From Pegea sp. RAD2-039 (taxonomy: Eukaryota > Chordata > Thaliacea > Salpida > Salpidae), in assembly GCA_034620365.1 (NCBI GenBank), contig JAQGEQ010000058.1, positions 1 through 64,000 of the forward strand: a DNA stretch of 64,000 nucleotides, written 5' to 3'. A model generated the notes under the pieces. The model ran no database searches, was not told the DNA's origin, and was given only the letters and a program-made list of their open reading frames with translations. The translations under genes and the position numbers were made by a program. Positions within the stretch are counted from its first letter, which is position 1; each line of letters begins with the position of its first letter. Shown in pieces: positions 1-64,000 of this stretch.

Positions 1-1099
1 ACAGCTGACAGAACCATGTTGAGTTGCTTGTTCAGCCTGTGTTTGGGTCACTGATTGTCCATACATCTGTGCTTCGAGTACAGATTGTCCATCGGAACAA
101 AACTCTTGGTTCACTGGCATTTCAATGAAGCTATTGTTTTGCTGAAGATTGTTATGATTTAGTAGTGGCTGAGTCACAACAGGGTTTTCAGGTTGCATGT
201 TTTCTTGAAAGGTTTGCCACTGATGTTGCTCTGTAGACCTACTAATATCTTCCATAAGACGCGATTGCTGCTGTTGAAATCCATTTTCACAGATAGGTTC
301 CATCTTTATTGTAGATTGTTGTTGATACGGCATACTTTGCATTTGGTTATGTCGAGCAAGAGATGGTTTCAGAATTGAATCAACCATACAAGATGTTCTA
401 CAAAATAAAATAATTCAATAATAAAATAATGATAATGAAATTAACATTTTTTAAGGAAAATATAATTTATGATAAAAGTGTTACAAAAAGCAGAACCGCC
501 ATTAGTCGATAACATAGCCTAGGGTATTGTTACGTTTCGGCTGCAGTTAATAGTGTGCAATTTCTCAAATGTGAAAAGCTTAGTTGATGAGTTATTTTGA
601 CTTTTTAAATATAATCAATTTATAACAACACTATTTCATCAGAAAACTTTAAGATAATCTTAAAGAAAAATTAATTAAAACAATTATTTCTGAAATCAAC
701 CTTTTTGGAAAATAAACAACTATTTAGCAAGTACTATAAAAAACGAATGGCGGCTTAACATAAGTAATTGCAGTACTTTCTTAAAACAAGTTTTGTTATT
801 ATTTATCTCTAATCCTCTGAGATCATTGCAACAAAAATATAAAACGGATTAGAATTTCATATATAATTTAAGCTATACTAGTTCTGTTATAAAAGACATT
901 CAAATTTAGTTTATAACAAAAACTAGCTTACAGTTGGTGGTTTCCAGTTGAACTTTCATCAAATGTATCTTTAAAATAAAAGCAGTTGTTTTTACAGCTA
1001 GATTTCACATTTGATGACCAAATAAGATAGACTTTTACATTTGAGAATAATTATTAGAATTAAAACTATCAGATATTTAGACTAACAAAACTTACCCAT
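1..1099 (-). CDS. Q1: Gln/Asn-rich protein, family Q (partial, cut by window edge)
   Basis: Three of the five family Q exons are present, on the minus strand: coding exon 1 at 1099-1096 (ATG plus G, then GTAAG donor), exon 2 at 968-932 (37 nt between AG and GTAAGC) and the 5' part of the large exon from 397 to beyond the left edge (acceptor TTTTGTAG). Joined, they keep one open frame beginning MDTFDESSTGNHQL, then TSCMVDSILKPSL and a Gln-rich stretch. The start is chosen because ATG G at the exon 1 end puts the exon 2 and exon 3 frames in phase in all copies. An ATG at 387-385 could also start translation in this copy, but copies Q2, Q4, Q5 and Q7 have GTG there. No stop is seen in the visible part. 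Function unknown; almost identical to Q6. Confidence 0.65.
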
Positions 1100-1364
1100 T
1101 AAAAATATTCTGCGTTAACTTGAATCAAATAATAACCTTTTAATCAAACAGTTTTGCTTAATATCTGAAACAGAAATGTTTCGTTTATTATCAACTTTGA
1201 TAAACATAAATGTCACTAAAAATCAAAACATAAATTCTTTGAAAAAAAACTGATATAAACAATTTAAAACTGAATAAGTAAAATTAACTATTTGATAAAT
1301 GCTAAACCGTCTTGAGATGTAGCAGTTTGAAGGTAAACTTCCCATATACTTTCTATGTTACAGA

Positions 1365-5110: not shown

Positions 5111-5128
5111 AGAAAAATTATCAAGAAA

Positions 5129-6448
5129 ATGAACAATTTTGAAATGAATAAATATTCTGATTGTGTGAAAGTTGTAGACGTTGGAGGAAAGACATCTTTC
5201 ATATTGCAAGGTAGTCTATTTGATTATATTTTTACACGACCGGCAGGAAAAAAGCTCTTAAAATTTCAATCTGTTTTTAATCATGGATTTGATTTTTTTT
5301 CTGATTTACTTGTGAAAGATGATATTTTGTCACCAGGATTTGTTTACTGGATTTACAAAGAAATTGGATTAGTTAAACTCTACAAATTGAAAGATTTTAA
5401 AGCCAACGATAACTCACGTAATCTTAATATACTTAAAATATTCTTTCAAATTGGAACAAAATTTTCTTTGAAAAAGAAAAAATCGTTGGAAAGCCATTTT
5501 GTTGCTTTAGAATTATTAAAACATTGTCTGTTTATTGCAGAAAAATTAAAACCAACTAAAACCATAATGAAATACAAAGCATACACGTTTTTATTTTTTC
5601 TGGTACAGATCATGGGTGTATTTGGCAATGTTTACGAAACTAAACTCTCCAAACCAACTAAAGATCTTAATGCTTTGATCAAGAGATTTTCGTTGCTATC
5701 TGGTAGAACTAAAAAGGTTAAATTATCAACAAACACAAACATTTACAAGTTTCAAGAATATTTATCGTTTTTGGATGTCTTTTGCTCCTCACTAGTTCAG
5801 TCGTGTATCATTCTGTTTCATATAGATTCTGCTGGTTTAAAGTATTACCAAGATTTAATGAGTGTAGTTGCATTTGTAAGCTTATGTGATTTGATGTTTT
5901 TTATTCAATCATTAATTGCAGGGAAGTTGTACGTTTTTGGGCAAACGTTTGCCTCATATAGCTTGCAAACAAGTTTACAAGAAGTTAAACAAGATGAAGA
6001 TGCCGTCAGTGTGTTGTTAAATAATTCACTTGTCGCAGTTTTGTTTAGTTTTAACTGGTTGATATCGTTAGCGTGTCATATGAAGTTTTCAAAGGTAAAA
6101 AAGATGTATAGTCGCCTACAAACTGATTTGTATGTATGTCGGGAAGTTTATGCAAGTTTCAAATTTTCTGATCAGCTAAACAAAATTAAATCTGACGTTT
6201 CAAAGAATCTGAATTATTTTTTAAATATTAAAAAAAATAATGAATACAACCAAGCTAAAATGTTTGCTAATAAGTATGAAAGCATGTTGGAAGACTTACT
6301 TGATATAAAAATAATTTCTGAATCTCTTTCAGACTGTCAAAAGATGCAATCTGTTTTGAATACAGCCACAGAAATATTCGTAAATTTGTATTATTTGTTT
6401 AAAATTAGTTATGATTGCAAGTTACGTGAGATATCATTACGAAACTAA
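5129..6448 (+). CDS. F1: uncharacterised 439-residue protein, family F
   Basis: Single open frame of 439 codons starting MNNFEM and ending ISLRN. I do not recognise the family. It is Lys/Leu/Phe-rich and probably mostly helical. The longest hydrophobic run is residues about 151-167 (AYTFLFFLVQIMGVFGN), too isolated to call a membrane protein. Family landmarks are DVGGKTSFILQGSLFDYIF (about 17-35), the LVKLYKL region, and LLSGRTKK (189-196). There is no signal peptide. A plausible splice acceptor (TTTTTAGCAG, ending 5097) lies 31 bp before the ATG, so a 5' untranslated exon may exist. An in-frame TGA between acceptor and ATG supports this start, with a second Met at codon 6. F1 is nearly identical to F4 (3 residue differences) and clearly diverged from F3, yet all three are open. 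It converges with Q2 downstream. Confidence 0.75.
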   Translation: MNNFEMNKYSDCVKVVDVGGKTSFILQGSLFDYIFTRPAGKKLLKFQSVFNHGFDFFSDLLVKDDILSPGFVYWIYKEIGLVKLYKLKDFKANDNSRNLNILKIFFQIGTKFSLKKKKSLESHFVALELLKHCLFIAEKLKPTKTIMKYKAYTFLFFLVQIMGVFGNVYETKLSKPTKDLNALIKRFSLLSGRTKKVKLSTNTNIYKFQEYLSFLDVFCSSLVQSCIILFHIDSAGLKYYQDLMSVVAFVSLCDLMFFIQSLIAGKLYVFGQTFASYSLQTSLQEVKQDEDAVSVLLNNSLVAVLFSFNWLISLACHMKFSKVKKMYSRLQTDLYVCREVYASFKFSDQLNKIKSDVSKNLNYFLNIKKNNEYNQAKMFANKYESMLEDLLDIKIISESLSDCQKMQSVLNTATEIFVNLYYLFKISYDCKLREISLRN

Positions 6449-9400
6449 ATTCAAAAGTATCAAAGATAACAAAAAAGAATCAAAAGGATACATAAAAAAC
6501 TTTTCTCCTTTGCTCAAAGGTATCTTTTCTTTTTTTACTTTCACTTTCAAATAGTTTTCTTCTAGATTAATAACTCTTAAAAAGCTAAAGGTTGAACTTT
6601 GAAGCCAAGATTTTGTGCGTTTGTTGATATTTTCCCGACCAGAAGAAATAATGTTTTTAGAATCTAAGTTTAAATTCCGCCTTTTCTATTTTATTTTTTT
6701 TTTATTCGAATTGGAATAAATTATAAAAAGTTTGTATTGTAATCAATTTTACTTTCAAACAGCTATAATAGAATCTTTTACATTTTAATTGTTTCGGCTT
6801 AGTTAGGTTAGCCTTAATACAGAATAATTAGTTAATGTTTTTAAAGAAATGTTTAATTTATATCATATAGAAAAAGGATAAAACCATCTTAACTTTAAGT
6901 AAGCAAATTTATTTATACTACAAGTAACATCTATTATATGAATTAAATGATTTACACAATTCATGTGATTTAGTGAACTTGTCTATTTATTACTATCGTG
7001 TCAGAAGTGAACTAGAATATAAAATCATTATCAGATCATTAGGATTTTATGAAAGCTTTTGATCTTGTATTTGAATCATAGAACTCTGATATATTATTCC
7101 TATTTTTTTATTTTCTCAATAGTTCATTTTATTTTGTGATTTTCATTTAGATACTCACCTTTAGCAATAGTAGCTAAGCTTAAATGTAAATTGAACAAAA
7201 ACGGTTTGCAACGTTTGTACTGGTTGATAGCGTTAAGCAAATACAAAGTTCTTACTGTTGGGAAAAGACCCAAACTCTTTCAGAATCATCTGTACTTGTG
7301 TGTGATAGGATAAGACTTAGATGCAATTATCCTTAGATATCCATGTGTTTTTTATAGATGTTATCAATTATGCTAACTTTAAAATCAGAACGTTCTTGAT
7401 TATTATGATTACTTAGCATAAAGTTTCACAACAACAATAGAAGCTTTATAATATTTTTCATTAGTTTTTAAAAATAAAATATTTGGAAATCTTTATAACA
7501 GTGATGAGAAATTTAAAAACTTCAATTAAAGTTTTTCTCTAACCAAAGTCTTTCAATCAATAACTTTTTACTTTGTTATTTATGCATTTGATGATCTAGG
7601 TTTTGATGATCTTGGTTCTTGTGACTATGTTTACAAAGTAGAAATTGAATTATTTTTAAACCTTTTTTTCCTTCTAATGTCGAAAAAATTGAAATTTTTA
7701 GCTGTTTGAAAGTTTGTTTCTTTTGGCTTCTCTTGGGAGTAAATCAAATTTTGTGATGTAACGGTAATTTTACTTGAATAATTGGTAAAAATTTAATCTA
7801 TGATAAAAAGAATATCTGCTTTGAATTTCATGTAAACAAAACTGAACTGATAATTTCTCGGTGTCAATTAAATAGTAAAAAAGTTTTCACAAACCAGCTG
7901 AAACAATATAAGCAATTATACTTATAGGTCGGAACTGCTGTAGAGAACTATGCAGTTTATTTATTGAATAACCAGCCGAAACTTATGAATTGTATGATGA
8001 TGCTATGTGAGCTGGTCTAAAGTATTTTAATAAAACATCTATTTTAATAAAACAGGTATAATAGTATATTGACGGCGCTTTAAATAAATAAAATATCACA
8101 ACAAAGCTACTTTAATAAGTGGCGTCATGACCTGTAAAAATATTTGAATTTAATCATTCTTTCTAAATGTGCCTCTAAGTCTGTAAAGGTTTCGAACTTT
8201 TTATTTTAAACATAATTGTTTGCTAAATACTTAACCATCTGATATAAATTCACAAAGAACAAGATAAAAGTAGACTTTTATTTTTATCTTAACTGTCCTT
8301 TGACAACTTATTCTTATAAAATAAGTATCCAACTGAAGTATATTTGTGAAAATTTGTCTCTACCTTAAACCAAACTTTACATTCTTCAGTTTTGATCAAT
8401 TGTTTTAACATTGCGCACTTTTTCAAAATTTAATGAAATACTTAATTTCCAAATAAGTTTTGTGGCTTAACTATTTAGTATACTTATTATCAGTATATAT
8501 TTACTGCCTTTATATATACGTTAATACAAAGACTTGATGAAAAGCTAGTTCTTGTAAATATTTTCTGCTTCTTGTATTTTCCAAATGCTTTAAAACTTAA
8601 TGTTAAAAAATAGCTGCCAAATGGCTCATAAATCTTACCATACAGTTTGGTCTACTAACTTGATTGTAATCTGAGATAAACATCAAATAAAAGTTTCTTC
8701 TGATAAAAGTTCTTAACTTACAGCAATTCTCATATTTTATTAATCTATCATATAGTTTTACTTTAGTATATTTTTCAAAAAAACTATTCAACAAGTTCAA
8801 ATTAATTTTATTTTACTTTTTACTACAGCTATTATACGACATGAATTTATTCATTTAAAAGTAAACACAAAGACTTCAAACACTGAATAAAAATTATCAG
8901 CAATTATAAATGTAAACAGATAAAAGCTTATCATGTAGAGAGTTATTTTGGGTATCAGATAATATTAGCAGATTTCTCACTAAAAAAGTCAAAGTTTGTG
9001 TTGAACTGATATTTAGTGATTTTTAACTTAAACTTCTCAAATCCAGCAGACCAGATTCATGAATTTGTTTACTCTTCTCCAACCAATGATATAGCCGATA
9101 CAAAACTTTTTAGGGTAAATTACAGACACAAAATAAAATTTCTACAAATTTCTGAGAAATAAATGGTAAAACACCATATGAAAAAGCAATTTAAATTGTG
9201 TAGATAAATAATTGAAGTTCAACACATTTAAGCTACAAAGGCTTGAGAATCCAAATAAATAATTCATTTTAGTAGATGATAGTGATTTGAGTTTTGTTAA
9301 GATATTCAATCGGCTCAAATTACTAGAAATTCCTTTAAAGTGGACTGAAAGCAAATTTATCTGTAAAAGTATTAAAGGTTACTCATACCACAAGAAATAT

Positions 9401-9460
9401 AACAGCAGTGAAACATTTTATAAAACCATTTCACCTCAAACTATATATACCTGGGTTCCT
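6449..9460. other. F1-Q2 spacer with decayed coding remnant
   Basis: No intact gene. Near 7,180-7,380 on the plus strand an open stretch contains LNKNGLQRLYWLIALSKYKV and continues to RPKLFQNHLYLCVIG before TAA. A related but damaged reading occurs at about 33,220-33,420, and mirrored copies at about 48,060-48,250 and 24,850-24,900. From 7,400 to 9,460 I see only module sequence shared with the other copies. A minus-strand 65-codon run at 8800-8603 is broken or missing in the modules near 22 kb, 36 kb and 57 kb, so I do not call it a gene. A likely 3' untranslated exon of Q2 begins near 9,357 (acceptor TTTTACAG). Confidence 0.4.
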
Positions 9461-11865
9461 TTAATTTGTATGAAAATGAGCCATGATTAATCCTAAAGTT
9501 GACTGGTATTCTTCTTCTTTAGCAGATCTTTCTGCTCTGTTTGATAACCACAGTTTAACGTATTGCAATAAACTATTACCATATAATATTTGAATTAAAA
9601 TAGATAAAATTTAACAGTTTCATAAGTTTTAAATTAGTTACTCTACAAAAATGATTTTGATAGATTTAAAAGAGAGATAATACAAACCTTTTCTGCATTC
9701 GAGAAAGTATAAATGATCTCAACTTCTTTAAAACCTCTTTATGCTTAGCTATCTCATTCATTTCGTCGACAAAGTTATTTCTAGAATTAAATTTAGGATA
9801 AATTTTAATTAAAACTTAAAAACGCAGAAAGTAAATGTACAATCTCAGGAAAAAAGATCAATCCTCATCAAATACTTATTTGAACTATTTCTGTTTAATT
9901 AGTTTTGAACTAAATTATAATGTATTTAATTTTTATTTTTTTGATGAATAAAAGTAATTTACGATATTTTATGTAAAACAATATATACAATCTAAAATGA
10001 ACAAAATTTGATACATCTTTGTATTTAAGATACAATTTGCCTAGAAAGATGCAAAAACTCTTTAGATGGTAATCACCAACGTTAGAACCAATCTGAATTA
10101 TTACATAAGATTTTATAATATCATACAAAATTTAAAATTTCACATACCTTTGGTTTTGAAAGCAGTTTTCCTCATTGTGACCATAAATGGAATCTTGCTG
10201 ATTTGGTGACATTTGATTGTTGCTTGGAATTGTAGCTGAGTAATTAGAGTTGTGAGCAGCCGATTGCTGTTGCTGATAAGTAACAAATTGATTTTGTTGA
10301 TTGAATGCAGCATGTTGATTTTGATGATAGAAGTGACGGTTTTGATGTTGATTGTAATAGGAATGCGGGAAAAAAGTTTGTTGAAATCCTTGTGGAGCGT
10401 TTGGTTGATGATAATGATCTGTTGGGTTGAGTTGTAGTTCTGATACAACTTTCTGATGACCAGTAAAATTTTGAAGATCTTTTTTTTGGCTCATGTGAGG
10501 AAAATTAGGCCTGTAGAACTTTGCTTGTTCAGATTGTTCAGAAGTAAAATAACTAGGGTGAACTTGCTGCAAACAGCTGACAGAACCATGTTGAGTTGCT
10601 TGTTCAGCCTGTGTTTGGATCACTGATTGTTCATACATCTGCGCTTCAAGTACAGATTGTCCATCGGAACAAAACTCTTGGTTCACTGGCATTTCAATGA
10701 AGCTATTGTTTTGCTGGAGATTGTTTTGATTTAGTAGTTGCTGAGCTACAACAGGGTTTTCAGGTTGCATGTTTTCTTGAAAGGTTTGGCTCTGATATTG
10801 CTCAGTAGACCTACTAATATCTTCCATAAAACGTGATTGCTGCTGTTGAAATCCATCTTCATAAATATGTTCCATCGTTATTGTAGATTGTTGTTGGTAA
10901 GGAATACTTGGCGTTTAAGAATTATGTCGAACAGAAGATGGTTTCAGAATTGGATCAACCACACATGATGTTCTACAAAATTTAAAAATGAATAATAAAC
11001 TAAGGATAAAAAAAGAGCTAAAATTAAAAAAAAAATTAATTTATAAAAGAAATGTTACATATAATACAAACATATAAGTCTTAGCAAACATTTTTTAATA
11101 ACAGATTTTTGCAACCACAGAAGTCAAATATAATGCATATTTTTGGTTGTGTGTATACTATATGTAAAGAAGATAAATGAGTGATTGTGCGTACAAGCAA
11201 GCGCTTGTTTGAAAATACTCTTCAACTGACCAAACCAGTAGACCGAAACTTCGGCCTACAACTAAAGCATTACCACTTTACTCGATCAAATAGCCCTAGG
11301 GCATTGTACGTTTCAGCTGCTTTTTACAGTGTAGTAATTTCAAATGTAAACGAGTTCAGTTTTTTTTCTATTTAGATATAATAAATCTATAACCAAAATT
11401 TTTCATCAAAATACATTGTAAAATTTTTGTAACAAAATTAATTACAACAATCCTTTTAAAATTTAACTTTATTACAAAACTTAAACAACTATTTAACAAG
11501 TACTTTAAAAAATGAATGGAGGCTAAATCTAAATAATTTCAGTATATTTTTGAAACAAATTTTGTTATTATTAATCTCTCAACATCTTAGATTATTGCAA
11601 CAAAAATATAAAATGGATTAAAATTTCAAATATAATTTAAGCTATATTAGTTATATTATAAAATAAATTTATATTTAGTTTAAAACAAATACTAGCTTAC
11701 AGTTGGTGGTTTCCAGTGGAACTTTCATCAAATGAATCTTTAAATATAAATAGTTGTATTTAAAACTAAAATTCACAATTAATGACTGAAGAAGATACTT
11801 TTTACATGAAGAAAAATTATTAGGATTAAATGTATCAGATATTTAGACGAGCAAAACTTACCCAT
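9461..11865 (-). pseudogene. Q2: family Q gene with premature stop
   Basis: All five coding exons are recognisable on the minus strand: 11865-11862 (ATG G), 11737-11701 (37 nt), 10972-10148 (825 nt), 9780-9688 (93 nt) and 9536-9461 (TAA at 9463-9461). All introns are GT-AG; the large exon ends AAAG before GTATGTG. Joined length is 1035 nt, exactly as in Q6. The last exons read NNFVDEMNEIAKHKEVLKKL... and AERSAKEEEYQSTLGLIMAH..HTN. A TAA at 10917-10915 interrupts the large exon early, so the full-length product is not made unless translation restarts, for example at the ATG at 10875. The same stop is in Q5, its partner in the inverted repeat. After the stop the frame stays open, so the damage may be recent. 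Confidence 0.7.
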
Positions 11866-18329: not shown

Positions 18330-18414
18330 AATAATGCTTGAAACACTTTACGTTCAAATGTAAAGAAAAATCCTGACAAATCGATTTCATCAAAAAAAAG
18401 CTTGCAATAGCAAT

Positions 18415-19345: not shown

Positions 19346-19427
19346 GATTGTGAATACACAAGATATCAATTTACAGAAGCCCATCATCAAATCTCATAAA
19401 CGTCAAAAAGACAATTCTTCTATCACA

Positions 19428-23532: not shown

Positions 23533-23544
23533 CTCATTGAAATT

Positions 23545-26923: not shown

Positions 26924-26949
26924 TATCTTGATGATTATTCTACAAAATC

Positions 26950-33465: not shown

Positions 33466-34521
<1,056 letters not shown>

Positions 34522-48900: not shown

Positions 48901-48970
48901 TTTAAGCAAAGGAGAAAAGTTTTTTATGTATCCTTTTGATTCTTTTTTGTTATCTTTGATACTTTTGAAT
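45964..48970. other. Q5-F4 spacer
   Basis: Reverse-complement partner of 6,449-9,460. It includes a likely 3' untranslated exon of Q5 from about 46,066, and the mirrored decayed reading LNKNGLQRLYWLIALSKYKV at about 48,230-48,170 on the minus strand. No intact gene. Confidence 0.4.
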
Positions 48971-50290
48971 TTAGTTTCGTAATGATATCTCACGTAACTT
49001 GCAATCATAACTAATTTTAAACAAATAATACAAATTTACGAATATTTCTGTGGCTGTATTCAAAACAGATTGCATCTTTTGACAGTCTGAAAGAGATTCA
49101 GAAATTATTTTTATATCAAGTAAGTCTTCCAACATGCTTTCATACTTATTAGCAAACATTTTAGCTTGGTTGTATTCATTATTTTTTTTAATATTTAAAA
49201 AATAATTCAGATTCTTTGAAACGTCAGATTTAATTTTGTTTAGCTGATCAGAAAATTTGAAACTTGCATAAACTTCCCGACATACATACAAATCAGTTTG
49301 TAGGCGACTATACATCTTTTTTACCTTTGAAAACTTCATATGACACGCTAACGATATCAACCAGTTAAAACTAAACAAAACTGCGACAAGTGAATTATTT
49401 AACAACACACTGACGGCATCTTCATCTTGTTTAACTTCTTGTAAACTTGTTTGCAAGCTATATGAGGCAAACGTTTGCCCAAAAACGTACAACTTCCCTG
49501 CAATTAATGATTGAATAAAAAACATCAAATCACATAAGCTTACAAATGCAACTACACTCATTAAATCTTGGTAATACTTTAAACCAGCAGAATCTATATG
49601 AAACAGAATGATACACGACTGAACTAGTGAGGAGCAAAAGACATCCAAAAACGATAAATATTCTTGAAACTTGTAAATGTTTGTGTTTGTTGATAATTTA
49701 ACCTTTTTAGTTCTACCAGATAGCAACGAAAATCTCTTGATCAAAGCATTAAGATTTTTAGTTGGTTTGGAGAGTTTAGTTTCGTAAACATTGCCAAATA
49801 CACCCATGATCTGTACCAGAAAAAATAAAAACGTGTATGCTTTGTATTTCATTATGGTTTTAGTTGGTTTTAATTTTTCTGCAATAAACAGACAATGTTT
49901 TAATAATTCTAAAGCAACAAAATGGCTTTCCAACGATTTTTTCTTTTTCAAAGAAAATTTTGTTCCAATTTGAAAGAATATTTTAAGTATATTAAGATTA
50001 CGTGAGTTATCGTTGGCTTTAAAATCTTTCAATTTGTAGAGTTTAACTAATCCACTTTCTTTGTAAATCCAGTAAACAAATCCTGGTGACAAAATATCAT
50101 CTTTCACAAGTAAATCAGAAAAAAAATCAAATCCATGATTAAAAACAGATTGAAATTTTAAGAGCTTTTTTCCTGCCGGTCGTGTAAAAATATAATCAAA
50201 TAGACTACCTTGCAATATGAAAGATGTCTTTCCTCCAACATCTAAAACTTTCACACAATCAGAATATTTATTCATTTCAAAATTGTTCAT
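48971..50290 (-). CDS. F4: uncharacterised 439-residue protein, family F
   Basis: Inverted partner of F1. It differs from F1 at only three residues that I can find (KVLDVGG for KVVDVGG, YKESGL for YKEIGL, PTKNL for PTKDL), two of them matching the residue found in F3. The start MNNFEM is preceded by the acceptor-like TTTTTAGCAG, with in-frame stops between. Fully open, 439 codons, same hydrophobic segment and LLSGRTKK motif. It converges with Q5 and diverges from Q6 across relic G. The near identity over 1.3 kb and the surrounding arm points to recent duplication or continuing gene conversion between the arms. Confidence 0.75.
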   Translation of the reverse strand: MNNFEMNKYSDCVKVLDVGGKTSFILQGSLFDYIFTRPAGKKLLKFQSVFNHGFDFFSDLLVKDDILSPGFVYWIYKESGLVKLYKLKDFKANDNSRNLNILKIFFQIGTKFSLKKKKSLESHFVALELLKHCLFIAEKLKPTKTIMKYKAYTFLFFLVQIMGVFGNVYETKLSKPTKNLNALIKRFSLLSGRTKKVKLSTNTNIYKFQEYLSFLDVFCSSLVQSCIILFHIDSAGLKYYQDLMSVVAFVSLCDLMFFIQSLIAGKLYVFGQTFASYSLQTSLQEVKQDEDAVSVLLNNSLVAVLFSFNWLISLACHMKFSKVKKMYSRLQTDLYVCREVYASFKFSDQLNKIKSDVSKNLNYFLNIKKNNEYNQAKMFANKYESMLEDLLDIKIISESLSDCQKMQSVLNTATEIFVNLYYLFKISYDCKLREISLRN

Positions 50291-50309
50291 TATCTTGCTG
50301 ATTAATCTA

Positions 50310-53300
50310 CAAAATCAGGAGCTGCTAAAAATAAGTCTATAATTGAATGTTTCATTAGATGGAAGATATTATCAAATATTACATTTACTATTTTCAAACT
50401 GTTCTGATAATATTCTAACTTAAAACTTACAGCAGGAATTAAGATTTAAGTTCAGCAAAGAAGTAGTAGTATCTTTATTAACTTAAAGTCTAAATAAAAA
50501 TTATGAAATCACATCAAATAAATAAAACATATTTGGTACAAAACTAGCAAACAAACGTTTAAGTAAGAAATAGATCTTTCGATATAAGAAAAGTTTCTAA
50601 CACATCTGCCCTCATCTTTGGGTGTTTCATATATTTGAGTGCTTGCAAATGTAAAGCAAATCAACTGAAAAAAGAATCATTGAAAACAGTTTGTTACTAT
50701 TTAATCAGTTTGTTCAAACTGTAGTCATTTCAATATTATATTTTCATTTTAGGAAATTAAAAAAGAAAGTTTTATTATTAACAATTCTGTAAAATCTTCG
50801 TTAGTGATTTCTCTACTTTTTTTATTTATATAAATCAATATTTTACTGATCTTACATAAAGCCTTATGGCTATCCTGATAACTTGGCACAAAGCTAGAAA
50901 TAATTCTTGGAAGTTGTAAAAGCTTACAACAGCTTTTGTGAATTTAGTCTTGTTACTTTCTGCAAGAAGCAAAAGAAAACCAAGTTATATTTGATAACGA
51001 AATACAAGACTTGTAGATTAAAAACGTATCTCCTTTTCAATACTTAGTGATTCTTATGAAGGCTTTTAAAGATTAAGAAACCCTTTCAATGACTCTTTCA
51101 TGTTATTTTACATCACAAAATAAATGTAGTTTTAACTCAGTTTGCTGCTGCTTTAGTATTTTATGGTTGAATATAACCTTAGACTCTTACAACGGATTAG
51201 CTGTTTTTTACATTATAAAAAATCTTATTAAAAGCTTACGATTGACAAGTGCTATGTCTTTTACTTTGTTGAACTGGTGAGATTTATTAATTGTAAACTT
51301 TTGAAAACTTTCAAACCATGATTTCGTCAGTTCTTTTTGAGATTAAATAATACCACTCCATCTATATTAAGGCTTCCACAAGTTACCTTTTCATAATTCT
51401 ATATTTGACTATGTAGAGTTGTACTTATAAGCATTTTAGACAGATATAAAGAATGATAATGCATAAAATTTTTAACAGTTGCTGCTAATGTATACAATTC
51501 AGTAAACCAAATTTTAAGCAAAACATTCAAATATTTTTAGAAAAATAATTGTAATTTTATGCACAGAAACTTTATAAATTTATTTGCAATCTCTATATTA
51601 CCAACTTTTATCAAAATAATTTGCGTGTCATAATTAAAAGAATATCACATGATAAATCGGTTTTGTGAAGTACAAAAAGGTTAGTTCTAGTTTGCAAACA
51701 TTCTCTAGGGCACCATCAAACGAAATTAGTTGTAGATAAAACTTTATAAAATTGATAATACAGACAGAAATATTCCTGAAAAAAAGTTTAACAAAAAAGT
51801 TTGAATAATTGTTGTAGTTCAATAAGAAAATAAAATTTTGTTCTGTGGATATATTTTAAATATCTAACAACTGTAAATAATTCCAGTCAGAATTCAAGGT
51901 TAGATTGAAAATATTCTAATTGGAAAGCTCTTATGCTAACGGGTGAGCACACAAGAAATGTTTTCAGTCTTATATGTTATCTAGAGTTAGTCAAGTCCTG
52001 TCACTAAGCTGAACACCTTTACAAAATTTGCTAAGTTTGTAACTTAACTGGTCCATTGACACTGATCATAACAACGTTTCATTCATAATATTTCTCATGA
52101 TCATCCAATAAATACGGTGAATAGTTCTAAAGAAAAATTCAAACTTCTAATGGGCATGTTATAGACTAGCTCTTCAATATCCAGTGAAAAGACACAATCA
52201 CATTTGCTTTAAAAAACTCCACTATACAAGGCTTTATTACAAGCTTCCTTGAAATGTACTATTACAGGCGCGTTAGATACGCACTACTCCAAACTTGTTT
52301 AAACATTCTCACCATAGCATCTTTCAAAAAATTTTCTGGAAATTAGTTATGATGCTTTTTAATTCATAACAAACTGAACCCAAATATTCTTTCATGCCAG
52401 TGTACTGAATGCAAAGCCGAAAGTGTTTTTGGGAATTTCATAATATTATCATCAGCAATTTTCTTTTTGTGAATGTTGAACAAATTCTTCAAATAATCAT
52501 TATTCTTTAAAAAAGCAGAAAAGTTTTGAAAAATACTAAAAATATTTCTAGTGATAGCTTAAATGTTCTTTACAAATCAATTTTTGAGTTTTAATTTGAA
52601 ATTCACCTGCTGTACTTCTTATTGATTATATACTTTTACAATTACAGAAAGGTTATCTATAAAAAGCAGAAAAAAGATTATGTCTACCTGAAATTTTTTA
52701 ATGTGAAGGTATTTTATATCAGCTACTAAAGAAATGTCTTATTTTTTTCCCAAAAACTTAAATTTTAATAACTTTTAGATATCATTTTTAAGGAAAATAA
52801 AAATATAATAAACATAGTGACTTGTCCTGTTGGAAGACATTTAATAAATTTGTTATGTCATTTTGGAGGTTGAATTCATAACAAAAATGTTAAAATTTAC
52901 TACAGAAATTGTTACAACTTTTCAGTACTATAAATAAACAAAGTTCTTGCTTACTATGAAGTACAAAAACCGTAAAAATATTTGCTAAAATTTATCTTAA
53001 ACACAATCTATATATTATCATTGGTAAATTTGTAGACTTTGTGGCACCAACACTTAAAAGTGTCATCAACATCAACTGATTTTATCATGTACTCAACAAA
53101 CTTTCTGGATTTTTTGCAATAATTTTTTAAAGGTTGTTTTTATCTTTTAAACTTTTTCTTATAAAAATACCCTCTGCTGACATTTTATTTACAACCAAGG
53201 TAAACAACAAGACTTGATTATAATCGAAAAAACATTTACTTCTTGTAGTGTGCTAATTTGTAAAGCATTCAACAAGCTTTCTCTTATATTTTAAATTGAG

Positions 53301-54060
53301 TTGCTGTACTGCAAACTTAACCTAAAACAATCCTTATATGATTTTGTGTAAAACCACAAGGCTATCACAAAGTTATCTATGTTTTTTTGCAATATAATTG
53401 TTGTTTGTATTTTCAAAAAATAATATTTTTATTGCAGAGTGACTACAAAGGTAAAAAGAAACCTACTTTTAACTAAAAAAGCTGAATCGTTCATTTTAAC
53501 TAAAATGCTTTTAAAAAATTATTCTTTTAGTTAGGGTTACTTCATGAGTTTGTAATTGTAAAGAATATACTGATGGAATAAAGGTGTCATTATTATCTTT
53601 AAAAGGAGTTGTAAACAAGTTAATTGTAAGTTAGACTAATAACTAAGGCTGTAAAAGAAGTATTTTTCAAGGCTTTTCTTGACTTGTTGTTCCATCACCA
53701 AGATTTGAAAGATTGAGATAACTCAAAATTGCTGCAATAATATCTGCAACATTCTTGGTGAATTTTTGTTTGTATTAGCAATTTGATTAGCAATTTGACC
53801 ACACATATGGTTTAAAATCTTCCCACAAAACTTTACGTATCGAAAAGAGATCGAATCTTGCGAGAAATTAATGATTTGATGGTCAGAGAATTCTTATCTT
53901 TCTGAGATCATTTAGATTTTAATTTGACATTTATCGCTGAATAAACATCGAACGTGGTGCCATCAAATTGATATCTGAAGATATTGACAGCAGCTTTTTA
54001 CTTACGAAAGTATTTCTTTTTAAACTATGAAAGGCTGCGTGAGAAACTAAACGTGAATTA
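50310..54060 (-). pseudogene. Relic G, copy 6
   Basis: Reverse-complement partner of copy 1 (1,365-5,110), nearly the same sequence. The conserved 96-nt block is at 53103-53008. The C-terminal remnant upstream of F4 reads APDFVD then a stop, where copy 1 reads APDFVEKLSRK then a stop. It adds little independent evidence because of the recent duplication. Confidence 0.45.
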
Positions 54061-54332
54061 GCTGGAATCTGTAACATAGAAAGTATATGGGAAGTTTACC
54101 TTCAAACTGCTACATCTCAAGACGGTTTAGCATTTATCAAATAGTTAATTTTACTTATTCAGTTTTAAATTGTTTATATCAGTTTTTTTTCAAAGAATTT
54201 CTGTTTTGATTTTTAGTGACATTTATGTTTATCAAAGTTGATAATAAACAAAACATTTCTGTTTCAGATATTAAGCAAAACTGTTTGATTAAAAGGTTAT
54301 TATTTGATTCAAGTTAACGCAGAATATTTTTA

Positions 54333-56510
54333 ATGGGTAAGTTTTGTTAGTCTAAATATCTGATAGTTTTAATTCTAATAATTATTCTTCATTGTAAAAG
54401 TCTATCTTATTTGGTCATTAAATGTGAAATCTAGTTGTAAAAACAACTATTTTTATTTTAAAGATACATTTGATGAAAGTTCAACTGGAAACCACCAACT
54501 GTAAGCTAGTTTTTGTTATAATCTAAATTTGAATGTCTTTTATAATAGAACTAGTATAGCTGAAATTAGATATGAAATTCTAATCCGTTTTAAATTTTTG
54601 TTGCAATGATCTAAGATGTTGAGAGATAAATAATAACAAAATTTGTTTTAAGAAGGTACTGCAATTACTTATGTTAAGCCGCCATTCATTTTTTATAGTA
54701 CTTGCTAAATAGTTGTTTATTTTCCAAAAAGGTTGATTTCAGAAATAATTGTTTTAATTAATTTTTCTTCAAGATTATCTTAAAGTTTTCTGATGAAATA
54801 GTGTTGTTATAAATTGATTATATTTAAAAAGTCAAAATAACTCATCACTAAGCTTTTCACATTTGAGAACTTCCACACTATTAACTGCAGCCGAAACGTA
54901 ACAATACCCTAGGCTATGTTATCGACTAATGGCGGTTCTGCTTTTTGTAACACTTTTATCATAAATTATATTTTCCTTCAAAAATGTTAATTTCATTATC
55001 ATTATTTTATTATTGAATTATTTTATTTTGTAGAACATCTTGTATGGTTGATTCAATTCTGAAACCATCTCTTGCTCGACATAATAACCAAATGCAAAGT
55101 ATGCCGTATCAACAACAATCTACAATAAAGATGGAACCTATTTGTGAAAATGGATTTCAACAGCAGCAATCGCGTGTTATGGAAGATATTAGTAGGTCTA
55201 CAGAGCAACATCAGTGGCAAACCTTTCAAGAAAACATGCAACTTGAAAAAAATGTTGTGACTCAGCCACTACTAAATCATAACAATCTTCAGCAAAACAA
55301 TAGCTTCATTGAAATGCCAGTGAACCAAGAGTTTTGTTCCGATGGACAATCTGTACTCGAAGCACAGATGTATGGACAATCAGTGACCCAAACACAGGCT
55401 GAACAAGCAACTCAACATGGTTCTGTCAGCTGTTTGCAGCAAGTTCAACCTACTTATTTTACTTCTGAACAATCTGAACAAGGAAAGTTCTACAGGCATA
55501 AATTTCCTCACATGAGCCAAGAAAAGGATCTTCAAAATTTTACCGGTCATCAGCAAGTTGTATCAGAACTACAACTCAACCCAACAGATCATTATCATCA
55601 ACCAAACGCTCCACAAGGATTTCAACAAGCTTTTTTCCCGCATTCCTATTACAATCAACATCAAAACCATCACTTCTATCATCAAAATCAACATGCTGCA
55701 TTCAATCAACAAAATCAATTTGTTACTTATCAGCAACAGCAATCGGCTGCTCACAACTCTACTTACTCAGCTACAATTCCAAGCAACAATCAAATATTAG
55801 CAAATCAGCAAGATTACATTTATGGTCGCAATGTGGAAAACTATTCTCAAAACCAAACGTGTGTAAATTTAATTAAATTTTCTTTAATATTATAATACTT
55901 TAAGTAATTGTTCAGAATGGTTTTAATGTTGCTGGTTAGGATCTAAAGATTTACTTGACTATAATTTTTATCTTTCTCAACATGAAAGATCTTACCCAAA
56001 GATAAAGATCAATAATTGTTTTTTTTTATTCTCTATTGTTTTTACATGAAATATCATAACTTAATTTTATGCATCAATAAAGTAAAACTTAAATACATAA
56101 TAAATTAGTTCGAAACTAAATCAACAAAAATACATTTACTTTCTATGTTTATTCAAGTTTCAATTGATATTTATCTTAAATTTAATTCAAGGAATAACTT
56201 TGTGGACGAAAAGTATAAGATAGCTAAGCATAGAGAGGTTTTGAACAAGTTGAGATCATTTATACTTTCTCGAATGCTAAAAAGGTTTGTAGTACCTCTC
56301 TTGTAAATATATCAAAATCAATTTTGAGTGTATCTAATTTAAACTATTAAAACTGTTTAATTGTATCTATTTTAACTCAAATATTATACTGGTAATGATT
56401 TATTGCAATAATTTAAACTGTGGTTATCAAACAGAGCAGAAATAGATGCTAACCAAGAACGAAACCAGTCAACTTTAGGATTAATCATGGCTGAGGTCCA
56501 TACAAATTAA
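54333..56510 (+). CDS. Q6: Gln/Asn/His-rich 344-residue protein, family Q (best intact copy)
   Basis: Five coding exons: 54333-54336 (ATG G), 54464-54500 (37 nt), 55034-55858 (825 nt), 56192-56284 (93 nt) and 56435-56510 (TAA at 56508-56510), joined 1035 nt. All introns are GT-AG (127, 533, 333 and 150 bp). The frame stays open across every junction. The protein begins MDTFDESSTGNHQLTSC. Residues about 200-260 are dense in Gln, Asn, His and Tyr (SYYNQHQNHHFYHQNQHAAF), a low-complexity, prion-like composition. The C terminus is charged and helical: NNFVDEKYKIAKHREVLNKL, SFILSRMLKRAEIDANQERN, ending MAEVHTN. The acidic start, Gln-rich body and basic helix resemble a transcriptional regulator, but I recognise no DNA-binding domain and do not assign a function. 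An AG/GTATGT donor after the stop suggests a spliced 3' untranslated region. Confidence 0.75.
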
Positions 56511-58334
56511 GGAATCTCGGTATGTATAGTCTTAAGAGAAATATTTGGTTTAATGTTTCACTGTTGCTAATTTTCTTTTTTGTATGAGTAACTTTTGATG
56601 TTTTACAGATAAATGTGCTTCCAGGTTTTCAAGGAGTTTCTAGCATTTTGAGCCGATTGAATATATTAACATAACACAAATGACTATCATTTACTGTAAT
56701 GATTTAATAGTTTTGATTCTCAAGATTTTGTAGGGCAACTACTTCAAGTAAAGAGCTTGAATTTTCCATAAGCACGTTTGAAACTGTTTTCCTTTTTCTT
56801 TTCTTTTTTATTATCATCTAATTTGCAAAATTTTGCTGTAGTTTTGTTGTGCGGCTAAATTTGTACCGCTATATTATTCTACCAACTATGTGATGGGTTT
56901 GATGATAGTATCCTTTAATAGTTTCAGTTTTAAATCGAATTTTAAACAGCGTCATAAACATATGTCTTCTTGTGAATCTGAGAATTTTAACTTTTAAATC
57001 TCTAATTATCAGTGCAACACAAACTTTGACATTTTTAATAAGAAATGTGCTAATATTATCCGATACCAAAAATTAACTCTCTCTTGTTTAGTATTTTATT
57101 TATGTGTTTATATATATAAAAACTTACAATATTTTTAGTATTTGGAGTGTTTGTGTTCATTCATGTTTGTTTGTAGAACAATAAAATTCATTTTGAACAA
57201 TAGTTGTAGTAATTAGTAAATTAAAGTTAATTTGAACTTACAAAATAGGTTTTTTTTAATTTAAGTTTTCTAAAGCTTTGGAACATACAAAAAGCAAACA
57301 ATATTTACAAAAACTAGCTTTTGACCAAGTCTTTGCATTCAGGTATATATGAAGGCAGTAAATATATACTGATAATAATTTTACTGAATAGCTAAGTCAC
57401 AAAGCCTATTTGGAAATTAAAGCTTTCATTAAGTTTTAAAAAAGTGCACCGAGTGGAACAGTTGATCAAAACTGAAGAAAGTAAAACCTAATTTTCAGAA
57501 ATATCTATCAGTTGGATAACTCCTTTTTCAAAACAAGTTGTCAAAAGAAAGTTCAGATAAAAGTAAAAGTCAATTTTTATCTTCAACTTTGTACATTTGT
57601 ATCAAAGGATGAAGCATTCGGCATTTAATCATGTTGAAAGCAAAAACTTCAAACCTTTATAGACTTAGTGGCACCTTTAGATAAAAGTACTGTAGAGTAA
57701 CTGTCTGACAGCAGGTCGTGACGCTACTTATTAAATTAACATGGTTGTGAGATTGCATCTATTGAGGGCGTTGTCAATATACTAGTTTACCTAAAAGATG
57801 TTCTGTTAAAATACTTTAGACCAGCTCAGCTAGCATCAGCATACAATTCATAAGTTCTGACTGGTCATTCAATAAATATACTGCAAACTTCTTTACAGCA
57901 GTTTCGACCTTTAACTAACTCGGTTGCATGTGTATTATACATCAATCGATGTAAAATTTTATGAGGCCCGGTTATCTAAAAAAGCAATAGTATAATTGCT
58001 TATATTGTTTTAGCAGTTTTTGCAAACGTTTTTACCGTTTAATTCACACCGAGAAATAATCAGCTCAATTTTGTTCTCATGAAATTCAAACCATAAATTC
58101 TATTATCATCGATTAAACTTTTATGAATTAATCAGCTGCTACTTACTGTTACATCACAAAGTTTGAGTTATTCACAACCAAGAGAAACAAACTTTCGAAC
58201 ATCTGAAAAATGTAACTTTTTTTCTACAATCTCAAGAGAGAAAGGTTAAATCAAAGATAAATAGAATGAAAGAAAAAGAAATCAATTGTTTATTTTGAGA
58301 ACTTAGTCAAAAGAGACAAGCGTTTCATAGATCT
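56511..58334. other. Module spacer downstream of Q6, no gene
   Basis: Reverse complement of about 7,610-9,440 of the first module, lacking the part equivalent to about 8,600-8,790. It ends sharply at about 58,334, where LINE2 begins. No intact gene. Confidence 0.5.
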
Positions 58335-60091
58335 TCTTACAAATGTCCTTGAGGTGGTAGATCTTGACATAACAATGGATATGGTATCTAAAGATATGTC
58401 TTCTTTAAAATCATCAGTTTCCAACACCGCAGATCAGATCCCAGCTTTGTTTTTAAGAAAGACTACTTCATATTTATCACTACCTTTATCGCCTTTCCTT
58501 AACATGACCCCGAGGCGAGGAATAGACCCACAAATTTAGAAGAAAGCTATTATTAATTCAATTCAAAAAGAAGTTTCCAGAAACACTGCACTTAACTACA
58601 GACCAGTTTCGCTGATTTCAGTTATCTGCAGAACTCAAGAGCATATCATTCACAATCATATGACCAGTCATTTGTTGGAGCTTTATCTAATATCTTATGT
58701 CCAGCATGACTTTGTGAAACAGAGATTTTTCCTGACTCAACATCTCACTTTTCTTAATTAGCTTACAGCCCATTACGAAAGTAATACTCTGTGTGACATC
58801 AGATATCTCGATTTTGCTAAGGTGTTTGATTCTGTTCCACTCACTAAGCTCGTTACTGTATTGAAAAACTTAAAAATCAACAGCTTTATCTTACAGTGGA
58901 TTGAAGATTACTTATCAGGTAGAACCCAACAAACTCGTGTAGAAAGATCTTTATCTACTTGTATGTCAAATCACAAGAGGTGTTCCTTAGGTTTCTGTTC
59001 TGGGTCCCCTTCTCTTTTTAATTCTCATTGAAGACCTCATCAGAAGATTAGTAGCAGTAGATGATGTCAGAGTGTTTGTTTGCAGATGATATGAAGCTAC
59101 TATCTTGTGATCCATCAAGACTTCAAACTACACTGCATACTGTAGAAAACTGGTCTACAAATTGGCAGCTCAGAATCCAGCCCATAAAGTCTGAACTTAT
59201 AACTTTTTCTCGTAAGCCAGCTGTAATATTTTTGAACCAATACTCTTCTATCAATAGATTTATTATTCAACGAGTATCTTCGGTTCTAAACCTTGGCATT
59301 ACTCTATTGTTTGACTTTAAATGGCGCAATTATGTCTCCAAAATTTTTGCAAAATTAATCAACCTTGTCTTCTTTTTTATAAGGACCATAAATTCTTAGG
59401 ACCCATGCTTTTTTATCAATCTTTTCAAATTGTACGTACGTCCAATTCTTGAATACAATGTTAGTGCATGGATATCATGTTATATCATATCATGTTAGTG
59501 ATATCAAGCAAATTTAATCTGTTCAGGCGACATTTACGAGATTAATATTAACATCTTCTCAGCTTCTTCAATTTAGATTTCTGGAAATTTGACGGATTAA
59601 AAGCGACTTAATTCTTATTTTTAAAATTACAGACAATTTAGTTGACCTTCAATTTGATGAATTCTCTTAAATTAATCCTTTCGTTAAGTTATGTTGGCTC
59701 AGACAACACACATTACATCTTAGAAAGCCTATATCACCTGGTACATAAATCAGAACGAATGGTTTCTCATACCGCACAATTAGTACATGGAACCAGTTGC
59801 CATCAGACATTGTCAAGTCAGAATCACTAGCCTTGCTCAAAAGGAAGTTGAACCGTTATAACATTGCCAACATTGTCATTTCTAAACTGTGATTTTCTCC
59901 TTTTTTATATTATTAACATTCTATATAATTGTTCACTGCTATATGCTTTGAGGGCTACAGAAATGCCATGTGTTACATCTTTTGCTTTCTATATTTTGCA
60001 CTAAATAGATGTTATTTGTGAGAATGTGTGTTAGCGAGAGGTGCTGCCTTCAGGTACCCACCACCGTATTTATTGTAATAAATAACTATAA
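58335..60091 (+). mobile_element. LINE2: 5'-truncated CR1/L2-like LINE with 3' end
   Basis: Starts within ORF2 and keeps the reverse transcriptase: NMTPRRGIDPQI (about 58,500), NTALNYRPVSLISVICRT (about 58,578-58,632), YLDFAKVFDSVPLTKLV (about 58,802), SFILQWIEDYLSGRTQQTRV (58,885-58,945), and the catalytic LFADDMKLL (FADD at 59079-59090) followed by WSTNWQLRIQPIKSELITF. Stops and frameshifts interrupt it. The C-terminal part includes a reading with SYVGSDNTHYILES (about 59,690). The 3' untranslated tail ends in TATTTATTGTAATAAATAAC near 60,091, with no poly(A), as in CR1/L2 types. It occupies the place of an F gene between Q6 and Q7. Confidence 0.9.
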
Positions 60092-61950
60092 GTTAGCTGG
60101 AGTTAGTCAAGTCCTGTCATAATACTAAACAATTAGAAAAAGTTGTTGCTAGGTTTATGACTTAGCTGGTCCATTAAAACTGATCATAACAACGTTTCAT
60201 TCATAATTTTTCTCATGCTCAACCAATAAATACGGTGCATAGTTCTAAAGAGCAATTCAAACTTCTAATGGGCATGTTATAGAAGAACTCTTCAATATCC
60301 GGTGAAAAGAAACAACCATTATCATCTGCAATTCCCTTTTTGTGAAAATTGAGCAAATTCTTCAAATAATCATTATTCTTAAAAAGAGTAGAAAAGCTTT
60401 GAAAACTACTAAAAATATTTCTAGTGATAGCTTATTTTTTCTTTTTCAAATCGATTTTTAAGGTTTAATTTGAAATTCACCTTTTGTACTTTTTATTTAT
60501 TATATTCTCCTAAATATACAGAAAAGTTATATATGAGAAATACAAGTAAAAAAGTATATGTCTAACTGCAATTTTATACCAGCTACTGAAGAAATGTTTT
60601 ATATTTTTCTCAAAAACTTAAATTTGTATAACTTTTAGATATATCTTTTATGAGAAATAAAAATATTATAAACAATAGTGACTTGTCCTGTTAGAAGATA
60701 TTTAAAAAAATTTTGTGAGCCATTTTGAAAATGAAATTTGTAAAAAATGTTAAGTCTACTTGAGAATATATTTCTACTTTTCAGTACGATATATAAACAA
60801 GGTTCTTACTTACTATAAAGTACAAGAACCGTAAAAATATTTGCTAAAATTTATCTTAAACCCAATCTATATGTTATCATTGGTAAATTTGTAGACTTTG
60901 TGGCACCAACATTTCAAAGTGTCATCAACATCAAATGATTTTATCATGTACTGAACTAACTTTCTGGATTTTTTTGCAATAATTCTTTTAAAGTTGTTTT
61001 TATCTTTCAAACTATATCTTATAAAAATACCCTATGCTGACATTTTATTTACAACCAAGGTCGATACCAACAAAGGATTGATTATAATAGAGAGAATATT
61101 TACTTCTTGTAGTGTGCAAATCTGTAAAGCATCCAACAAACTTTTACATTTTAAATTGAGTTGCTCTACTGCAAACTTAACCCAAAACAAGCGCTATATT
61201 ATTTTGTGTAAAAGCATAAAGAAACTATTACAAAGTTATCTATGTTTATTTGCACTATAAATGTTGTCTGCATTTTCACAAAAAGAACTTTTTTCTTGCA
61301 TAGTGATTAAATAGGTAAATAGGAAACTTACTTATAACTAAAAAAGCTGAATCGTTCATTTTAACTAAAATGTCGTTACAAAATTATTCTATTAGTTAGG
61401 GTTACTTCATGAGATTGTAATTGTAAAGAATATACTGATGTAAAAAAGGTGTCATTGTACTTTAAAAGGAGTTGTAAACAAGTTAATTGTAAGTTAGACT
61501 AATCACAGAGGCAGTAAAAAAAGTATTTTTCAAGGTTTTTCTTGATTTGTTGTTCCATCACCAAGCTTTGAAATATTGAGATAATTCAAAATTGGTGCAA
61601 AAATATCTGCAACATTCTTGGTGAATTTTTTGTTTGTATTAGCAACTTGACCACACATATGGTTTAAAATTTTCCCACAAAACTTTACGTATCGAAAAGA
61701 GATCCAATCTTGCAGGAAAGTAATAAATTGATAGTCAGAGAATTTTTTATCTTTCTGAGATCATTTAGATTTTAATTTGACATTTATCGCTGAATAAACA
61801 TCAAACGTGGTGCCATCAAATTGGTATCTGAAGATATTGACAGCGGCTTTTTCCTCACGAAAGTATTTCTTTTTAAACTATGAAAAGCTGCGTGAGAAAC
61901 TAAACGTGAATTAGCTGGAATCTGTAACATAAACGGTATATGGAAAGTTT
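60092..61950 (-). pseudogene. Relic G, copy 7 (shortened)
   Basis: Inverted partner of copy 4 (39,680-41,518), sharing its internal deletion. The conserved 96-nt block at 60962-60867 reads KLVQYMIKSFDVDDTLKC, then CWCHKVYKFTNDNI and TAG. An 88-codon run on the plus strand (60994-61260) overlaps it antisense. That run is partly kept at 40,597-40,373 but has no support as a gene. Confidence 0.45.
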
Positions 61951-62187
61951 ACTTTCAAACTGCTACATCTCAAGACGGCTTACCATTTATCAAATAGTTA
62001 ATTTTACTTATTCAGTTATAAATTGTTTAGATCAGTTTTTTTTATCAAAGAATTTCTGTTTTGATTTTTTAGTGAAATTTATGTTAATCAAAGTTTATAA
62101 TAAATAAAACATTTATGTTTCAGATATTAAGCAAAACATTTTTATTAAAAGTTTTTTATTTGATTCAAGATAGCCCGTAAATTTTTA

Positions 62188-64000
62188 ATGGGTAAGTTTT
62201 GTTAGTCTAAATATCTGATAGTTTTAATTCTAATAATTATTCCTTAATGTAAAAGTCTATATTTTTTGGTCATTAAATGTGAAATCTAGTTGTAAGAACA
62301 ACTGTTCTTATTTTATAGATTCATTTGATGAAAGTTCAATTGGAAACCACCAACTGTAAGCTAGTTTTTGTTATAAACTAAATTTGAATGTCTTTTATAA
62401 CAGAACTAGTATAGCTGAAATTAGATATGAAATTCTAATCCGTTTTATATTTTTGTTGCAATGATATAAAATGAATAGAGATAAATAATAACAAAATTTG
62501 TTTGAAAGTACTGAAACTATTTATGTTAAGCCGCCATTCATTTTTTATAGTACTTGCTAAATAGTTGTTTATGTTTTCCAATGAGGTTGATTTGAGAAAT
62601 AATTGTTTTAATTAATTTTTCTTCAAGATTATCTTAAGGTGTTCTAATGAAATAGTGTTGTTATAAATTTATTATATTTAGAAAATCAAAATAAATCATC
62701 AACTAAGCTTTTCACATTTGAGAACTTGCACACTATTAACTGCAGCCGAAACGTAACAATACCCTCGGCTATGTTATCGACTAAGGGCAGTTCTGCTTTT
62801 GGTAACACCTTTATCATAAATTGTACTTACTTTAAAAAGATGTTATTATTATTATCATTGTTTTATTATTGCATTATTTTATTTTGTAGAACATCATGTG
62901 TGGTTGATTCAATTCTGAAACCATCTCTTGCTCGACATAATAACCAAATGCAAAGTATGCCGTACCAACAACAATCTACAATAAAGATGGAACCTATTTA
63001 TGAAGATGGATTTCAAAAGCAGCAATCGCGTTTTATGGAAGATATTAGTAGGTCTACTGAGCAACATCAGTGGCAAACCTTTCAAGAAAACATGCAACCT
63101 GAAAAAACTGCTGTAACTCAGCAACTACTAAATCAAAACAATCTTCAGCAAAACAATAGCTTCATTGAAATGCCAGTGAACGAAGAGTTTTGTTCCGATG
63201 GACAATCTATACTTGAAGCACAGATGTATGAACACTCAGTGACCCAAACACAGGCTGAACAAGTAACTCAACAAGGTTCTGTCAGCTATTTGCATCAAGT
63301 TCACCCTACTTATTTCACTTCTGAACTATGTGAACAAGGAAAGTTCTACAGGCATAATTTTCCTCACATGAGCCAAGAAAAGGATCTTCAAAATTTTACC
63401 GGTCATCAGCAAGTTGTATCAGAACTACAACTCAACCCAACAGATCATTATCATCAACCAAACGCTGCACAAGGATTTCAACAAGCTTTTTTCCCGCATT
63501 CCTATTACAATCAACATCAAAACCATCAATTCTTTCATCAAAATCAACATGCTGCATTCAATCAACAAAATCAATTTGTTACTTATCAGCAACAGCAATC
63601 GGCTGCTTACAACTCTACTTACTCAGCTACAATTCCAAGCAACAATCAAATGTTAGCAAATCATCAAGATTACATTTATGGTCGCTATGTGGAAAACTAT
63701 TCTCAAAACCAAACGTTTGTAAATTTAGTTAAATTTTCTTTAATATTATAATACCTTAAGTAATTGTTAAGATTTGTTTTAATGTTGCTGGTTAGGATCT
63801 AAAGATTTACTTGACTATTATTTTTTATCTTTCTTAACAATGAAAGATCTTACCCAAAGATAAAGATCAATAATTGTTTTTTTTTATTCTCTATTGTTTT
63901 TACATGAAATATCATAACTTAGTTTTATGCATCAAAAAAGTCAAACTTAAATATATTATAATTTAGTTCAAAACTAATTAAAAAGAAATACATTTACTTT
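62188..64000 (+). CDS. Q7: family Q protein (partial, cut by window edge)
   Basis: Exons are at 62188-62191 (ATG G), 62319-62355 (37 nt, MDSFDESSIGNHQL with exon 1) and 62890-63714 (825 nt, acceptor ATTTTGTAG, donor AAAC before GTTTGT). Exons 4 and 5 are expected about 330 bp further and lie beyond 64,000. The large exon is fully open. Here the frame also happens to stay open back through part of intron 2, but the AG/GT signals and the match to other copies favour the spliced model. It differs from Q6 by scattered substitutions (for example QQLLNQNNLQQ, SELCEQGKFY). Confidence 0.65.

Follow-up and report, generated by a model that had tools for sequence, protein, structure and literature searches.

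Inverted arms, mosaic tracts and a flipped segment in a cluster of two orphan gene families of the salp Pegea sp. RAD2-039

The first 64,000 bases of contig C26 of Pegea sp. RAD2-039, hereafter the window, carry copies of two gene families, F and Q, in both orientations. How was this arrangement built, and do its inverted copies still exchange sequence? C26 is 930,425 bp long and belongs to an assembly of 105.7 Mb in 387 contigs; the GC content of the window is 28%. Repeats of TTAGGG occur on four contigs of the assembly, two of which open with them, and a search of the assembly for a COX1 match found none.

Inverted repeats across the window

A preliminary description of this DNA had presented the whole window as copies of one 10.6-kb module. 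Self-comparison showed that most of the window, 86.8%, is indeed similar to another part of it (copies of at least 300 bp within the window), but the structure is a patchwork, and four blocks of 300 bp or more have no match within the window (16276–20291, 23534–24252, 33445–35290 and 58946–59711). Similarly, the proposed module length describes the inside of the largest inverted arms, where direct repeats are offset by 10.57–10.78 kb, but not other places: the next direct repeat has an offset of 7.87 kb, and on contig C173 five F copies are spaced 6.7–7.8 kb apart. Copies continue past the right edge of the window, where C26:64001–65847 still matches 56.1–57.9 kb at 88% and F is found again at 68.4 and 76.5 kb.

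The same description had proposed two inverted-repeat systems with constant coordinate sums of about 55,420 and about 101,630, and self-comparison located these at 55,434 (P1) and 101,631 (P2). Arm A of P1 (1–13426, plus strand) extends past the contig start and has 97.5% ungapped identity to the reverse complement of its partner, arm A' (42022–55433, minus strand). Alignment of the arms over these 13.4 kb shows 333 substitutions and 24 gaps, distributed unevenly: identity per 500 bp is 97.8–100% between 1.5 and 9.5 kb, and 88.5–98.6% in the inner 3 kb. The first P2 arm (37631–41897, plus strand) forms the right end of a segment that we call S, and shows 95.0% ungapped identity to the reverse complement of 59712–64000 (S'', minus strand), where similarity continues to about 65.8 kb, beyond the window. 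Identity between the P2 arms is lowest in mid-arm (90.5%) and reaches 98.0% in the last full interval toward the junction at 41897. A third inverted pair, P3, overlaps the other two and joins 35602–41291 (plus strand) to 52445–58230 (minus strand) at 90.5% ungapped identity. Taken over the inverted arms, identity per 500 bp spans 81–100%. Kilobase-scale inverted matches of this kind, with BLASTN E < 1e-20, are not due to chance, and the arms carry genes: the 13.4-kb arms of P1 hold both F and Q, and genes are also present in the arms of P2 and P3.

Two minor features of the window lie outside these gene families. The palindrome spacer contains a C-terminal piece of a tubulin gene (33730–34053, minus strand; PF03953, E 6e-14), of alpha type as judged by eye. 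At 23761–24156 (minus strand), in sequence without another copy in the window, there are open stretches of 63 and 68 codons, for which no convincing Pfam match was found.

Mosaic tracts and a segment in reversed order

A tract in arm A (105–1569) is identical to part of a second contig, C35, with no mismatch over C35:1693–3156, and both of its flanks follow A'. Read inward from the contig end, arm A is A'-like for its outermost 105 bases, equal to C35 for 1,464 bp, and A'-like again. Alignment of A, A' and C35 gave 72 variable sites. When the 5 sites at which A alone differs were left out, the remaining 67 fell into 3 runs, against a minimum of 15 runs in 100,000 shuffles of the labels, a test in which neighbouring sites are not independent. 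A bounded tract of 1.46 kb is what gene conversion would be expected to leave. A consensus mixed from two arms at the contig ends could mimic such a tract, and could also inflate the identity of the gene copies F1 and F4 described below; C26:1 and C35:1 both lie within arm A sequence.

We compared C35 with C26 over C35:1–45,863, minus 1,274 bases. C35:1–7553 matches C26:52160–59712 in forward orientation, and C35:7554–26664 matches C26:41897–20902 in reverse. The reversed part is segment S (20902–41897, plus strand), which is about 97% identical to, and collinear with, its C35 counterpart read backwards, except that 2.2 kb of S (C26:21701–23937) are missing there. The better C26 partner of C35 changes at C35:7554, which is the edge of P2 at 59712/41897. 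On C35, S adjoins the A' block on its outer side, the order expected if the 41.9–59.7-kb segment were inverted. The junction at 59712 is itself present on both contigs, at 99.4% identity. As a single forward diagonal, C35:1–13573 matches C26:52160–65840 at 94.5%, with identity dropping along it from 99–100% to 83%.

The affinity of C35 also changes within the P2 arms. In the ~1.3 kb nearest the junction C35 resembles S'' (25 informative sites versus 6), and beyond that it resembles S (56 versus 13), with the best split at 1,289–1,291 bases. None of 5,000 permutations was as extreme, in a test that covered the first 2,622 bases, left out sites at which C35 alone differs and, as before, treated neighbouring sites that are not independent. 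A switch of this kind is the mark that a crossover or conversion at this place would leave. Together with the uneven identity of the arms, the 1.46-kb tract and the P2 switch, both of them bounded, support the earlier proposal of repeated inverted duplication with exchange between copies, although consensus mixing at contig ends would look alike. C35 beyond 26,664 and C26 before 20,902, to the left of S, differ in sequence, and a single inversion is therefore not enough to explain both contigs.

The P2 junction coincides with a transposable element. A non-LTR retrotransposon fragment (58334–60091, plus strand) lies over the junction at 59712; its reverse transcriptase pieces match RVT_1 (PF00078, E 1.2e-4 and 1.7e-6) with scores under Pfam's own cut-off. 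In a genome search with this element, in which 40 of 3,521 first-look candidates were scored, at least 32 of the 57 matches listed cross the junction position as one match, and at least 30 of these are neither the window copy nor the C35 copy. Segment S ends in the last 0.4 kb of the same insertion, its 41509–41897 being 97.9% identical to 59712–60100. The 3' end of the insertion (41518–41897, minus strand), placed from genome matches, is cut at 41897, and the S–A' junction therefore appears to have broken inside the element. On the other side of S, a second copy of the element family (19432–20898, plus strand), containing endonuclease and reverse transcriptase pieces that both score below Pfam cut-offs, is cut 3 bases before S begins and matches 58334–58945 at 85%. 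These positions suggest that the element may have helped to seed the rearrangements.

Possible origins of the arrangement

We consider that the window is probably one end of an actively rearranging ampliconic cluster of the orphan genes F and Q, shaped by inverted duplication, by conversion between arms and by a crossover that flipped 41.9–59.7 kb. Segments holding a single-exon F gene and a spliced, glutamine-rich Q gene would have been duplicated repeatedly in both orientations, some of the breakpoints falling within insertions of a non-LTR retrotransposon that is abundant. Recombination between inverted arms would still go on: conversion would transfer kilobase tracts from copy to copy, holding F1 and F4 near-identical as the others diverge, and the 41.9–59.7-kb segment would be flipped by crossover between the arms of P2. 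We infer that the exchange took place in the animal rather than in the assembly. Palindromes created by fold-back reads or collapsed repeats are an improbable source of the pattern. The window does begin at a contig end, several contigs of the family are short, and an account of palindromes in other invertebrate genomes warns that erroneous scaffolding creates artificial ones (PMC7953838); however, such an origin sits poorly with the many substitutions and gaps between the P1 arms, with inverted-arm identity that varies so widely from one 500-bp stretch to the next, and with the presence of junction 59712 on two contigs.

How C35 and C26 are related bears directly on the flipped segment: they may be haplotypes, or else opposite sides of a single larger array. 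If the two contigs meet end to end, they would form one larger palindrome with arms of about 23.7 kb around a 28.6-kb spacer and with S present twice in direct order, and conversion between arms alone would explain the mosaics, with no need for a haplotype inversion. To this arrangement we give somewhat less than an even chance. Near its start C26 matches C35:1693–3156 exactly, the two contigs end in this overlap and run outward from it in opposite directions, and identity between C35:1–13573 and C26:52160–65840 declines as it does in palindrome arms. However, the overlap is imperfect, with 30 mismatches or gaps in C35:1–1692 and another 8 at the tip of C26, within its outermost 105 bases, and S shows no gradient against its C35 copy: most of 38 intervals of 500 bp lie at 94–99% and one at 86%, which looks allelic. 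That the contigs are haplotypes differing by an inversion of 41.9–59.7 kb through crossover between the P2 arms is likewise a real possibility that falls short of even. Divergence is similar, mostly 0–4% per 500 bp, over C35:1–9000 (x + A') and most of S, and the affinity switch lies ~1.3 kb from the junction, where a crossover could leave one, but conversion alone can also produce such a switch, and the differing sequence to the left of S would call for further rearrangement.

The cluster is very unlikely to be an amplicon on a sex, B or germline-restricted chromosome. The architecture resembles Y-chromosome palindromes as described for the human P6 (PMC3723533), but matches to the family are spread, by our own count, over 29 contigs unplaced on chromosomes, some of them hundreds of kilobases long, and nothing in this analysis supports a sex-chromosome, B-chromosome or selfish identity. 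An extended form of the preferred ampliconic reading would make F and its partner Q an orphan genome-wide system at a locus of reproductive or parasite conflict away from sex chromosomes, its copies diversified as well as reshuffled by arm conversion and inversion, both orientations segregating and the palindromic layout keeping the locus in flux; taken as a whole, this is unlikely.

The architecture is of a known kind, and the gene family that it carries is unrecognised. Lineage-specific, fast-evolving multigene families form clusters, and the cluster described here resembles these in having copies in both orientations, pseudogenes, and recent near-identical groups on long stems, while its F and Q genes lack a convincing match in Pfam, NCBIfam, PHROGs or, for F only, PDB. 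With the ampliconic palindromes of ape Y chromosomes it shares inverted arms, multi-kilobase conversion tracts and arm inversions; for human palindrome P6, conversion tracts averaging 2,068 bp and infrequent arm-to-arm inversions have been described (PMC3723533). In contrast to the ape Y palindromes, whose arm identity exceeds 99.9%, arm identity here is patchy at 81–100%, the genes could be matched to no family and there is no evidence of a sex chromosome. Palindromes have also been described in the Adineta vaga and Folsomia candida genomes, in an account that proposes conversion and cautions about assembly artefacts (PMC7953838). These too are inverted gene blocks in invertebrate assemblies, but they were defined from gene collinearity, whereas the arms described here were duplicated recently, belong to a multicopy family and carry evidence of tracts. 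The locus offers a worked case, so far with no sign of sex linkage, of how a flipped segment and conversion tracts map onto inverted arms and a retrotransposon junction. If the inversion is polymorphic, recombination between inverted arms could be measured directly here, in an animal genome of small size.

The gene families F and Q

The window contains four F loci, as the preliminary description had listed: F1 (5129–6448, plus strand), a single-exon orphan gene of 439 codons; F2 (25649–26923, minus strand), whose frame is broken by an in-frame TAG; F3 (31053–32351, plus strand), open over 432 codons; and F4 (48971–50290, minus strand), again 439 codons long and 4 bases different from F1. F2 and F3 stand head to head, as it had noted. 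Its contrast between near-identical and long-diverged copies was borne out as well: F1 and F4 differ over 439 codons by 1 synonymous and 3 non-synonymous changes, and F1 and F3 share 61% amino-acid identity. A tree of 24 F copies shows several groups of recent, nearly identical copies on long stems; F1 and F4 form one of these groups, and the members of the others are largely on different contigs.

Among the 30 best-scoring F loci of the genome, 24 are open single-exon frames of 418–456 codons and six are broken or short. A search that listed 102 matches and scored 96 of 170 candidates, so that its counts are lower bounds, returned at least 80 matches to this short form, about 70 loci by our own count, on 20 contigs, together with at least 22 matches to longer relatives. 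A dedicated search for the latter, with 59 of 194 candidates scored and counts again lower bounds, gave at least 42 matches (about 36 loci by our own count) on nine contigs, with frames of up to 805 codons, several of them broken. These longer single-exon relatives are 32–36% identical to F and lie on C266, C91, C95, C254, C67, C75, C261, C275 and C286, many of them clustered on a contig. No convincing match to F was found in Pfam, NCBIfam, PHROGs or PDB, and none to Q in Pfam, NCBIfam or PHROGs; weak database matches of the two families (E 0.039 to 0.97) were treated as chance. We considered whether F came from viruses or bacteria and set this aside, as no relative was confirmed in viral contigs, genome contigs or phage records at the sensitivity of those scans.

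Gap lengths indicate that the reading frame of F is under constraint: in 55 pairs of 11 loci, which are not independent of one another, lengths divisible by three account for 186 of 198 gaps in coding sequence, compared with 93 of 506 gaps in the 780 bases upstream. In the same pairs coding identity is 78.9%, hardly above the 77.6% of the upstream flank. Over 249 of 276 pairs, median dN/dS in successive parts of the protein rises from 0.54 through 0.83 to 0.99. Constraint may accordingly be slight in part of F. We tentatively suggest that F evolves fast and is retained for what it encodes, most likely in a reproductive or host–parasite contest. A large orphan family that preserves its frames while its protein evolves quickly, up to the silent rate in the final part, makes conflict worth testing. 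A splice-acceptor-like AG ~16 bases upstream of the F ATG is kept in 16 of 18 aligned short loci, with a comparable site in 3 long loci, suggesting a 5' intron or a trans-spliced leader.

Q consists of a glutamine-rich main exon and two further predicted exons. Of the seven Q loci counted in the preliminary description, six were found by protein search. Q0 (1–399, minus strand) is cut by the contig end, and a full Q gene occupies the matching place on C35 (2875–3720). The main exons at 37883–38743 (minus strand) and 55032–55892 (plus strand) are open, as is that at 62888–63763 (plus strand; open frame of 366 amino acids); the main exon at 10135–10974 (minus strand) contains one TAA, and the copy at 44449–45292 (plus strand) is broken by stops. 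The seventh locus has no reported Q protein match; a candidate is 21990–23532, which matches 8689–10177, the 3' portion of a region holding a Q gene. For the copy at 37883–38743, exon B is predicted at 37487–37579 (minus strand) from splice sites aligned by eye, its frame joining the main exon, and exon C, also by eye, at 37184–37337 (minus strand). Exon B is present in 17 of 22 aligned copies. Exons 5' of the main exon are tentative, because their phase into it misfits in the window copies. A likeness between exon B and the MEF2-binding stretch of class IIa histone deacetylases was suspected, but it found no support in PDB and Pfam scans of the exon peptide or when the genome was searched with a Q query, and it was dropped. 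Pairwise dN/dS of Q ranges from 0.50 to 0.95 in 36 pairs of 9 copies; these are 9 of 10 chosen copies, the 62.9-kb copy being absent, and the other 12 of the 22 aligned (broken, shortened or duplicate) were left out beforehand. Among the matches listed, the only relatives of Q outside F/Q clusters are two copies on C121 (51–60%).

Nuclear-receptor zinc fingers (zf-C4), a domain not known outside animals, recur near the family, and 100 zf-C4 matches were listed in the assembly. Some, in part with stops, lie beside or near F (C26:81823–82029, C165:6457–6618, C159:24524–24685, and C70 at 27285 and 110677). These fingers seem to be part of the wider amplicon, since the two copies that were read share flanking sequence. 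A fusion of a nuclear receptor with F was considered but is not proposed: F fragments lie ~1.2–1.6 kb from zf-C4 remnants on C165, C159 and C70, and on C165, the one read for this purpose, finger and F frame are separate. Elsewhere, zf-C4 copies of near-equal score, many of them ~4.17 kb apart, occur on C150, C288, C291, C294, C138, C326 and other contigs, and are apparently tandem arrays carrying receptor genes.
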